Part shown: positions 29,526-38,651 of the stretch, piece by piece
Numbering within the stretch: the first letter of the stretch is position 1
Layout of the letters: every line of letters begins with the position of its first letter
NCBI GenBank assembly: GCA_003598085.1
Contig: QZKU01000144.1
Span: forward strand, 1 to 64,000
DNA from: Candidatus Abyssobacteria bacterium SURF_5
GTDB taxonomy: Bacteria > Abyssobacteria > SURF-5
Direction of reading: 5' to 3'
DNA length: 64,000 nt
The notes under the pieces: model-generated
What the model saw: only the letters and a program-made list of their open reading frames with translations
The model's database searches: none
What the model was told of the DNA's origin: nothing
Program-made: the position numbers and the translations under genes

Positions 29526-29639
29526 TGCTTCTCCTTCTATTTAATCGAGCCCCGGGAGCCGGCAACAGGACCCCTTAGATTTTGATGCATCAAAAAAATT
29601 TGGCTCGTGCACCCGCCCTCGATTCACTTCACAGGCCGC

Positions 29640-29745
29640 TTTCCGGACCGCCAACTCAGACCAGGTTACCTCCGGCACACCGGACAGTCGCTTACCGCTG
29701 CTCCCTTCCGGGCCTGGCGGGGTTGGGCAATATCCGATTGCGAAG
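29640..29745 (-). ncRNA. ffs: Signal recognition particle RNA (4.5S-type)
   Basis: Read on the minus strand, the sequence has the universal SRP core: GGCCCGGAAGGGAGCAGC (GGAA tetraloop region) followed by GTGTGCCGGAGGTAACC. Flanking segments pair as expected for helix 8/5: CCAGG with CCTGG, CCAAC with GTTGG, GCC with GGC and CGGA with TCCG. That brackets a hairpin of about 100 nt. The ends are approximate. It is encoded between tRNA-Ser and dnaX in the same orientation. Confidence 0.9.
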
Positions 29746-29941
29746 GACCCGCTCCTCATCGCCGGCGTATCCGGCGCAGACACCTGATCCATCAAACCTC
29801 AGACGGGAATTCGATCTCGCTAAAGCGGGTTGCGAGTACAGGGCACCGCTAACTCCCCATCTAGCACGAGCCGAAACATGACCGATCTTTAGACGCGCCG
29901 CCTAAAATTTGCGCTTTCAGTCGCTCTGATTATCTCAAGAA

Positions 29942-30037
29942 TGGCGGAGAGGGAGGGATTTGAACCCCCGAGGCGAGTTTTAGCCCGCCTAGCCGATTTC
30001 GAGTCGGCCGCTTTCAACCGAGCTCAGCCACCTCTCC
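29942..30037 (-). tRNA. tRNA-Ser (anticodon CGA)
   Basis: A class II tRNA of 96 bases. The acceptor stem GGAGAGG pairs with CCTCTCC, and the discriminator G is followed by an encoded CCA. The anticodon arm GCCGA-CTCGAAA-TCGGC places CGA in the loop, and a long variable arm (GGCGGGC/..CTCGCC) identifies tRNA-Ser. It reads UCG codons. Confidence 0.96.
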
Positions 30038-34530: not shown

Positions 34531-35919
34531 TTACCGGCTTATCATGTGAATCGCCTGTTTGCGAACGGCTTCGTCGGCCTCATGAATGCTCTCGGAGAGG
34601 GTGGGATGCGCGTGAATCATTTCCGCGAGCTGTTCGACCGTGATTCCAGCGTGTACGGCGAGCACCAGCTCATGAATGATGTCGGTCACATTCGGGCCGA
34701 TCATGCTGGCGCCAAGCACCTTCTCGGTCTTCTTGTCCGCGACAACCTTCACAAAACCGGTGGTATCCTCGATAATCATCGCCTTGCCCAGCGCAGTGAA
34801 TCGGAATTTGCCGGTTTCCACCTCAAAACCGGCCTCCTTCGCATCATTTTCCTTCAGGCCGACACTGGCGATCTCCGGCCGGGTATACACGCAGTACGGG
34901 ATGGCATCATATGAAAATGTCCGGTCCCCGCCAAGAGCGTTGGCGACCGCCACTGTTCCCTGCATGCTCGCGACGTGCGCGAGCATCACTTTTCCCAGAA
35001 CGTCGCCGACAGCGTAAATGCCGGGCGCGCTCGTCTCCATCTTGTCGTTGACCAGGATAGCGCCGCGTTCGTCATGGTCCACGCCGGCATCGTCGAGCCC
35101 GATCCCTTCGGATACGACCGACCTGCCGACTGCGACCAGCGCCTTCTCGGCCTCGATGACTTCGCCGCCCTCTGTCGCGGCCTTCACCTTGCCGTCGGAC
35201 ACGTCCATATTCGTGATTTTGGCGCCCGTCAGAATCTTGATGCCGCGTTTCTTGAACTCGCTTTTCAGTGTCTGCGAGACCTCGCGTTCTTCGGTGGGAA
35301 TAAGCTGCGGAAGCAGTTCGATAATAGTCACTTCCGAACCGAAATCGCGAAACATGCTTGCGAACTCGCAGCCGACGTAGGCGCCGCCAATGATCATGAT
35401 CGACTTGGGAACCTCTTTCAGGTCGAGCGCCTCGGTGCTCGTTATCACATTGACGCCATCCACCTTGAACATCGCCGGCCGCATTGCCTGCGAGCCGGTC
35501 GCAACGATAATCTTGCCGCTCTCGCCCTTCGCCTGTCCCTGCGGCAGTGTGACGCCGACGCGGCCGTCGCCAAGTAATCTCCCCTCGCCCTGCACGTACT
35601 CGACTTTGTGAGCCTTCAATAGGCTATGGATTCCGCCGACGAGTTTCTGGACAATCGCGTTCTTGCGTTCGAGCGCCTTCGGGTAAGCGAGCCTGACGTC
35701 GGATACCTCCACGCCGAATTTTTCCGCCTCCTTCGTCCTGGCCAATACATCGGCGGTCGCCAAAAAAGCTTTTGTTGGAATGCACCCCCTGAGCAGGCAG
35801 GTGCCGCCGACTTCATCTCGCTCGATAAGCGCTACATGTGCGCCGAGTTGGGCCGCCCTGATCGCGGAAACGTAACCGCCGGTGCCGCCTCCAATAATCG
35901 TGATATCGAATTTCGCCAT
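34531..35919 (-). CDS. lpdA: Dihydrolipoyl dehydrogenase
   Basis: The product is 462 residues. FAD motif ITIIGGGTGGYVSAIRAAQLG, redox-active disulfide GGTCLLRGCIPTK, NAD motif IMIIGGAYVGCEFA, second FAD-binding motif GIYAVGDV, and C-terminal HAHPTLSE with the catalytic His-Glu pair are all present. It reoxidises dihydrolipoamide in 2-oxoacid dehydrogenase or glycine cleavage complexes. None of those partner genes is adjacent, so the complex it serves is unknown. Confidence 0.94.
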   Translation of the reverse strand: MAKFDITIIGGGTGGYVSAIRAAQLGAHVALIERDEVGGTCLLRGCIPTKAFLATADVLARTKEAEKFGVEVSDVRLAYPKALERKNAIVQKLVGGIHSLLKAHKVEYVQGEGRLLGDGRVGVTLPQGQAKGESGKIIVATGSQAMRPAMFKVDGVNVITSTEALDLKEVPKSIMIIGGAYVGCEFASMFRDFGSEVTIIELLPQLIPTEEREVSQTLKSEFKKRGIKILTGAKITNMDVSDGKVKAATEGGEVIEAEKALVAVGRSVVSEGIGLDDAGVDHDERGAILVNDKMETSAPGIYAVGDVLGKVMLAHVASMQGTVAVANALGGDRTFSYDAIPYCVYTRPEIASVGLKENDAKEAGFEVETGKFRFTALGKAMIIEDTTGFVKVVADKKTEKVLGASMIGPNVTDIIHELVLAVHAGITVEQLAEMIHAHPTLSESIHEADEAVRKQAIHMISR

Positions 35920-37491: not shown

Positions 37492-37614
37492 GATTCTGCT
37501 GCAAAACCCTCACTCTCGGGTTCAACCGCGCTATGGTAGGTGCGAATTTATTCGCACATTCAAGACTGGCCGAATGAATTCGGCCCTACCAAAGGGGGGC
37601 TCTGCAGTGGAATC
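37492..37614 (+). mobile_element. MITE copy 1 (123 bp, no coding capacity)
   Basis: The ends are imperfect inverted repeats: GATTCTGCTGCAAAACCC on the left, and on the right GGCTCTGCAGTGGAATC (reverse complement GATTCCACTGCAGAGCC). Inside are two palindromes, GTGCGAATTTATTCGCAC and GGCCGAATGAATTCGGCC, enclosed by GGTAGG...CCTACC. The element is flanked by a perfect 7-bp direct repeat, ACATTAT, a target-site duplication. Nearly identical copies lie at 38524-38651 and, inverted, at 41363-41485. Confidence 0.85.
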
Positions 37615-37696: not shown

Positions 37697-38395
37697 TTAC
37701 GGCACCCAGAACGGCCCGGTTTTTCCGATCTCCCGCAGCGTGTTGAAGAATTCGGGCATGAATTCCTGCATGCGCGAAATGTAATCCGGCTCCATTCGCT
37801 TGCGGAAAAAATCGATCGAGAACAGTTTTACCAGGTCCGCCACCGGTATGATGCCCGCCTCGGTCGCGGGATCAAACTGCTTCCAGTTTCTCAGATGTTC
37901 TTCCGACCGGAAGAAGTTCATCGTGCTTCAGGCAAAGCCCGGATCTTGCATCCACGAGAAGAACGGAACGGAGACATGCCCGATGATCTCTTCAGGCTGT
38001 TTCTTGAGGATTTGACCGTCCTTGACCTCGACGTGGATCGGCTCGCCGCAATCGAGACAGGGAGAATCAATATTAATGATCTTGCCCGGAAAAAGCCAGC
38101 AGACTGCCAGCGACTCGAATGCTCACTGGCCAAACCATTTCTGAAGGCCGTCAATCGTGATTCGGTACTGGTTCTGCAGGTTGTGAAACGGGGCCATCGA
38201 AACCAGCAGGTCGGTCTTGGGGTAGAGCCAGCCGGGCACGCCCGAATTGATCAGGTTGTGCAGCGCCTGGCGCCCCTCCTCCATCGAAACCCCCAACTCC
38301 TTCGCGATTTGGGTGTAATGCGGCGCCTGTCCCGTTTCGACCATCCCTCTCATGATGATGTTGAACGTTCTGTCCAATTGCGTGGGTTCGGCCAT
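37697..38395 (-). CDS. Candidate double-selenocysteine alkylmercury-lyase (MerB)-like protein; two in-frame TGA codons
   Basis: One frame of 232 codons runs from the ATG at 38395 (AGGAGG just upstream) to the final stop, interrupted only by TGA at codon 91 (38123-38125) and codon 156 (37928-37930). The translated parts match the alkylmercury lyase fold: an N-terminal winged helix (HYTQIAKELGVSMEEGRQAL), then FGQ-[TGA]-AFESLAVCWLFPG, SPCLDCGEPIHVEV, and GFA-[TGA]-STMNFFRSEEHLRNW. By my by-eye alignment to MerB from memory (WCALD and FCCHVHFFAS), the TGAs fall on catalytic C96 and C159, and Glu94 falls on D99. Spacing is 65 residues against 63. Each TGA is followed by a SECIS-like hairpin. No ribosome binding site precedes an internal ATG after the second TGA, which argues against separate genes. 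The alternative is a pseudogene with two nonsense mutations. TGA is an ordinary stop elsewhere in the window. Whether the substrate is organomercury is unknown. Confidence 0.8.
37898..37915 (-). promoter_or_regulatory. SECIS-like hairpin after the second in-frame TGA
   Basis: Minus-strand TTCTTCC-GGTC-GGAAGAA: a perfect 7-bp stem with loop GGUC, the loop starting 19 bases after the TGA. In the E. coli fdhF SECIS, recalled from the literature, a GGUC loop starts 18 bases after UGA and its G and U contact SelB. Confidence 0.7.
38095..38111 (-). promoter_or_regulatory. SECIS-like hairpin after the first in-frame TGA
   Basis: Minus-strand GCTGGCA-GTC-TGCTGGC: a 7-bp stem with two G-U pairs and a GUC loop that begins 18 bases after the TGA. 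The apex GCAGUCUGC is one base short of the fdhF apex GCAGGUCUGC. Confidence 0.65.
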
Positions 38396-38440
38396 ATGCT
38401 CATCCTCCTGTCCTTTGCCGCGACCTTTAAAGCCGCCGAA

Positions 38441-38523: not shown

Positions 38524-38651
38524 GATTCTGCTGCAAAACCCTCACTCTCCGGTTCAACCGCGCTATGGTAGGTGCGAATTTATTCGCACATTCAAGTCAA
38601 GACTGGCCGAATGAATTCGGCCCTACCAAAGGGGGGTTCTGCAGCGGAATC
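38524..38651 (+). mobile_element. MITE copy 2 (128 bp)
   Basis: Same orientation as copy 1, with a 5-bp internal duplication (TCAAG) that accounts for its extra length. It is flanked by CATGATA and CATGAAA, a 7-bp target duplication with one mismatch. It lies in the divergent intergenic region between the MerB-like gene and the lipoprotein gene and adds a spurious upstream reading frame to the latter. Confidence 0.85.

Follow-up and report, generated by a model that had tools for sequence, protein, structure and literature searches.

The organomercurial lyase MerB, the textbook enzyme of methylmercury breakdown, cleaves carbon–mercury bonds via two cysteines (Cys96 and Cys159) and an aspartate (Asp99). 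A MerB-related selenoprotein has also been described, i.e. SaoL (NF040728), which is entered as a MerB-like organometallic lyase in the tables of PMC9312934 and PMC13188914; the SaoL row in the 2026 review gives 'CU' and '1', taken as the motif and the number of selenocysteine (Sec) residues, apparently one. In the literature searched, which did not extend to the primary SaoL papers, no report was found of Sec at both MerB catalytic positions.

Within the window, i.e. the whole stretch of 64,000 nucleotides that was analysed, translation and a Pfam MerB match identify a MerB-like gene of 232 amino acids with two in-frame TGA codons (37697..38395, minus strand), which runs from an ATG at 38395 to a TAA at 37699–37697 and is preceded, 8 nt upstream of the ATG, by AGGAGG, on sequence reading a likely ribosome-binding site (38404..38409, minus strand). 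A near-identical intergenic repeat of ~125 bp lies on both flanks of the gene (37492–37614 and 38524–38651), with 99% identity over a 73-nt part and 96% over a 55-nt part. The read-through product matches Pfam MerB (PF03243) with 73.7 bits (E=1.7e-20), above the gathering cut-off of 27, and sequence alignment gives E 1.3e-9 with MerB2 (5c17) and a weak match, E 0.35, with MerB (3f2g). Alignment to MerB places codon 91 (38123..38125, minus strand) on catalytic Cys96 and codon 156 (37928..37930, minus strand) on catalytic Cys159, and Glu94 sits at Asp99, the catalytic trio of this gene being U91, E94 and U156. The fold and catalytic positions are common to this protein, MerB (PDB 1s6l, 3f0o) and MerB2 (5c17), but where MerB has a catalytic Cys at both sites this gene has TGA at both; both catalytic cysteines of this MerB relative appear to have been replaced by Sec.

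The predicted structure (mean pLDDT 71, built from 4 sequences) points in the same direction, in that a VIA structure match aligns the model with 3f0o_B over 120 residues (Z 13.2, rmsd 3.2 Å) and MerB or MerB2 accounts for each of the top 11 Foldseek matches of the model (E ≤ 2.5e-5), with TM-scores to MerB of only 0.43–0.54. The N-terminal region of the model resembles LexA and other winged-helix structures at Z 4.7–6.3, too weak to rely on. The product would be a protein of MerB fold with a winged-helix-like N-terminus, in which both catalytic residues are Sec, beside the acidic Glu94. It resembles SaoL in being a MerB-related selenoprotein; membership of SaoL was, however, rejected, the score of 40.8 bits falling short of the cut-off of 140 and the alignment spanning residues 14–137 only, with TGA156 outside. 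SaoL itself was found over its cut-off in none of 386 genomes, with weaker matches in 9. Membership of the MerB equivalogs NF009710 and NF033555 was likewise rejected, the scores (37.1 of 193 and 34.1 of 200) lying far below the curated cut-offs.

A double-TGA MerB-like gene is present in each of the three genomes of the phylum that were examined, the source genome included. More widely, MerB matches were found in 10/386 genomes spread over the domain, in 28/396 genomes of the phylum of G084 (26 over the cut-off) and in 1/12 genomes of the phylum of G245. A scan of contigs with two short peptide patterns, by which relatives can be missed, gave three subfamily-A loci; two of these, L023 and L024, duplicate L012 (labelled Candidatus Poribacteria) and L013 (Candidatus Abyssobacteria SURF_17) and were counted once, and the third, L025, is on a 5.57-Mb chromosome record labelled Deltaproteobacteria bin85, with a tree placement in Myxococcota. 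The genes with TGA at site 159 (TGA159 genes) number 26, one further copy included, and fall into three subfamilies, of which A (4 genes) and B (8 genes) have TGA at both catalytic sites and C (14 genes) has Cys at site 96 and TGA at site 159; the catalytic trio is U, D, U in B and C, D, U in C. In the tree, which is midpoint-rooted and has several open forks, the groupings of A and of B are both fully supported, A lying among C and a Cys group, and B beside canonical Cys MerB. The rows removed were L059 and L060, which score below the family cut-off and are spurious or partial; L033, whose MerB-like domain lacks the catalytic Cys; L064, where the MerB match in G418 is split in two; and L067, a broken Rubrobacter copy of MerB. 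The last of these lies on the Rubrobacter radiotolerans plasmid NZ_CP007515.1, resembles subfamily C and has TGA at site 159; public annotation carries a short N-terminal piece of it alone, as organomercurial lyase.

Sec insertion, lyase activity and substrate are matters that we infer from these comparisons. The product most likely works as MerB does, and would use a selenolate pair where MerB has a thiolate pair to cleave the carbon–metal bond in an organomercurial or a compound of that kind; such selenolate-based carbon–metal lyase chemistry is on balance favoured. An alternative, which is possible but rather unlikely, is that Sec is inserted into a metal-binding or redox protein that reuses the MerB fold and is no carbon–metal lyase. 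The gene neighbourhoods fit with this alternative, no mer gene being found when 30 neighbouring ORFs from the window and 12 loci were scanned (10 of these ORFs gave no family match), as does the occurrence of MerA, which among 22 Sec-MerB genomes is over the cut-off in G418 alone, a genome that also has Cys MerB genes; in addition, Asp99 is replaced by Glu in subfamily A. Against it, the three catalytic positions are kept, with U or C at the first, D or E at the second and U at the third, and the Asp itself is kept in subfamilies B and C.

MerA over the cut-off was found in 3/3 Cys-MerB-only genomes searched, out of 12 available; G002 also carries a Cys MerB and has no MerA over the cut-off. 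The neighbourhoods of the loci examined hold no consistent gene partner. The window encodes, two ORFs downstream of the MerB-like gene and on the same strand, a MerA-related flavoprotein disulfide reductase (34558–35910, minus strand), which scores 390 bits against the MerA cut-off of 454. Because a profile search found no MerA over the cut-off in the source genome, the genomic context lends no support to a mercury substrate.

The hairpin downstream of TGA codon 156 (37898..37915, minus strand) has the sequence TTCTTCC-GGTC-GGAAGAA, its arms lying at 37915–37909 and 37904–37898 and its loop at 37908–37905. The earlier note had described it as a perfect 7-bp stem with a GGUC loop, which proved exact on re-reading of the minus strand, and had placed the loop 19 bases past the in-frame TGA, which agrees with the 19 nt counted from the TGA at 37930–37928. 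In the fdhF-type SECIS, too, a GGUC apical loop lies at a similar distance from the UGA, and it is in these two features that the likeness lies; the stem here is simple and perfect. The window contains 528 GGTC loops on its two strands, of which this alone has a perfect stem of at least 7 bp; 60 shuffled windows (single-base shuffles inside 500-base blocks) gave 0.033 such hairpins per window. An Rfam scan of the window returned no match at the hairpin and, over threshold, just a bacterial large SRP RNA (29605–29869) and one tRNA, a tRNA-Ser (29942–30037), both on the minus strand.

The bacterial SECIS model outlined in PMC13188914 has an apical loop of 3–9 nt, an upper stem of 4–16 bp, a G within the first two loop positions, a UGA-to-loop distance of 16–37 nt and an MFE limit of ≤ −7.5 kcal/mol. 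The hairpin, with its 4-nt loop and 7-bp stem, is within the loop and stem limits, and the 19-nt distance, like the 18–19 nt at which a SECIS-like hairpin is present in 26/26 TGA159 genes, is within the spacing range. A G stands within the first two loop positions here (GGUC) and in 26/26 TGA159 genes, although the hairpin search over these genes itself demands it; every gene still gave a hairpin. Folding of the 42 nt past UGA156 gives an MFE of −11.5 kcal/mol, well within the limit (the bare 18-nt hairpin has −7.4 kcal/mol), and when the 45 nt past TGA159 are folded, 25 of the 26 genes reach −7.5 kcal/mol, with L058 failing at −6.8.

Protein constraint might also produce such a hairpin: F-F-[RW]-S-E-E would happen to be written in self-complementary codons, TTC/TTC being complementary to GAA/GAA, and the hairpin would be a by-product that does nothing as RNA. 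When synonymous codons for FFRSEE were sampled at pooled usage, GGTC with at least 6 Watson–Crick pairs arose in ~1.9% of draws for this gene, so the single copy of the hairpin is, alone, only moderately significant evidence against codon constraint. Draws for GGTC with 6 Watson–Crick pairs gave 0.08–2.8% per gene (probability 0.0008–0.028) in 25 of the 26 genes; in the remaining one, L045, the protein cannot encode GGTC there and the probability is zero. The strength of the SECIS case comes from conservation. A GGTC loop in exact register, closed by 6 or more pairs, is present in 24/26 TGA159 genes when G-U is allowed, and in 22/26 when Watson–Crick pairs only are counted, despite strong synonymous divergence; in the other two genes, L043 and L045, the stem has 8 bp and the loop 6 nt (AGGTCG and AGTTCC). 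The three genomes of the phylum share all 18 nt despite differing at 51–80% of synonymous sites, and the L025 hairpin differs from those three by one compensated pair.

Covariation was assessed on 25 of the 26 rows (alignment A4), L040 being excluded with 42 nt identical to L038. In the true register 97.1% of cells are paired, versus 50–63% in slid registers, and 5/7 pairs are changed on both sides, which argues against protein constraint; four of five measures beat all 500 shuffles and the fifth was equalled by 17/500. The closing pair is U-A in subfamily B versus C-G in most of A and C, a change that turns Arg into Trp and keeps the loop.

Comparison with homologues lacking TGA at site 159, the check that the earlier note had set, is likewise at odds with protein constraint. 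The GGTC loop with at least 6 pairs in register was found in 0/19 such homologues (18 Cys, 1 Trp) versus 24/26 TGA159 genes, even though 11 of the 19 keep FF. The Trp homologue, L050, has Ser at site 96, TGG at site 159 and FFRSDDH, is without the hairpin, and may have descended from a Sec form and lost activity. The near part of this comparison is small, with 4/19 (L047, L052, L065 and L066) in the closer Cys group; the 19 include the Cys rows L031, L048, L051 and L054. Plasmid-collection matches to a subfamily-C protein amounted to 17 records, 4 of which were examined for further Cys comparators, and matches to subfamily B and A proteins amounted to 55 and 24 records; with these 4 records examined in all, the Cys comparison set is small. 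In favour of protein constraint, the Cys homologue L052 retains a 10-bp stem in register, partly G-U, with the loop GGGA; in L065, also Cys, CGGTC is kept and pairs just in a shifted 5-bp stem. In the tree the Cys group of L052 and L065 is placed, at weak support, with the TGA gene L053, and the hairpins of L052 and L065 may be remnants after Sec loss. Protein constraint is, overall, highly improbable as the source of the hairpin, and the reading that it is a SECIS element through which UGA156 is read as Sec is very probably correct. The SECIS and selenoprotein interpretation of the earlier note is upheld by the Cys comparison, with L052 and L065 as partial exceptions, and is further supported by the Sec machinery, the location of the TGAs on catalytic Cys positions and purifying selection past both.

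The first, weaker SECIS-like hairpin, downstream of UGA91, was found by folding and hairpin search as GCTGGC-AGTCT-GCTGGC (38095..38111, minus strand) and forms 6 bp with the loop AGUCU, or 7 bp with the loop GUC, G-U included. In relatives its loop is GGTCT (L012 and L013) or AGTTT (L025), subfamily A having at site 96 a 6-bp stem with the loop GGTCT, AGTCT or AGTTT ~17 nt past the TGA, whereas subfamily B has a 6–9-bp stem with the loop CGTGC or CGTCG at 26 nt. In the synonymous-codon test the element is above codon constraint in B (P 0.005–0.035 per gene), but not in A (P 0.16–0.18; ~0.18 for this gene). Thus, of the proposal that two elements in one gene strengthen the case, it stands that a first element exists, but in subfamily A that element is weak. 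Many Cys relatives have at site 96 chance hairpins that obey the model, some as strong as −8 kcal/mol, and because of these, agreement with the loop and spacing model alone proves little. Since the first elements of A and B differ in place and sequence, the comparison suggests that Sec96 was gained separately in each, i.e. by two gains; a common origin of Sec159 is possible because the site-159 hairpins are alike in A, B and C.

That two nonsense mutations have made the gene a pseudogene, or that its TGAs are assembly errors, is very improbable, even though the standard reading of the gene yields fragments and the source genome, at 5.1 Mb and 98% completeness, is a draft in 145 contigs. The same two TGAs are present in four subfamily-A genomes, including the L025 chromosome, and in a second subfamily, and, by sequence comparison, the frame is held under purifying selection beyond both. 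Between and past the TGAs, pN is 0.10–0.24 versus a pS of 0.5–0.9 in six subfamily-A pairs; past U156, dN/dS is 0.09, 0.13 and 0.21 in the three pairs for which it could be computed, and in the other three, where synonymous change is saturated, pN is 0.18–0.24.

The source genome has selA (588 bits) adjoining selB (381 bits), selD (388 bits) and a tRNA-Sec (67.5 bits), and tRNA-Sec is over threshold in G000–G003. The selD gene (L070, C42:20143-21069) itself carries one in-frame TGA, followed by the GGUC-containing hairpin GGCGCA-GGUCC-UGCGCC. Genome-wide reassignment of TGA, as opposed to recoding at the site, would also explain read-through in this gene, but has a negligible probability given that 22 of the 44 mechanically called ORFs of at least 200 aa in the window end in TGA and that the genome has full Sec machinery. 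Across relatives, selB is over the cut-off in 19/19 TGA-MerB genomes examined; its presence is consistent with the Sec reading but does not discriminate, because it is over the cut-off in 7/8 non-TGA MerB genomes examined too, the one without being G744, which has Cys. Several of these selB matches span just the first 340–350 of 581 positions. G595 has two selB genes over the cut-off (contigs C3 and C19), the second ~4 kb from its double-TGA MerB-like gene.

The proposed mechanism is one in which the hairpin acts as the bacterial SECIS for the later of the gene's two in-frame UGA codons; SelB with Sec-tRNA-Sec would bind the GGUC-loop hairpin, so that UGA156 is decoded as Sec, and the element downstream of UGA91 would lead to the same decoding there. 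There is about an even chance that these genes represent an unannotated class of diselenocysteine organometallic lyases, which use two selenolates, were reached at least twice independently, are uncoupled from MerA and serve a demethylation or demetallation route other than mer. For such a class the gains would be those in A, among Cys96/Sec159 relatives, and in B, with unrelated first-site SECIS elements. With like elements at site 159 in three subfamilies and different elements at site 96, the family would provide a case for the study of SECIS evolution. A natural MerB with Sec at both sites would, if true, test the effect of selenium on carbon–metal bond cleavage, and may point to an ability of uncultured bacteria to demethylate, one that can escape gene surveys because the in-frame TGAs break up the gene.
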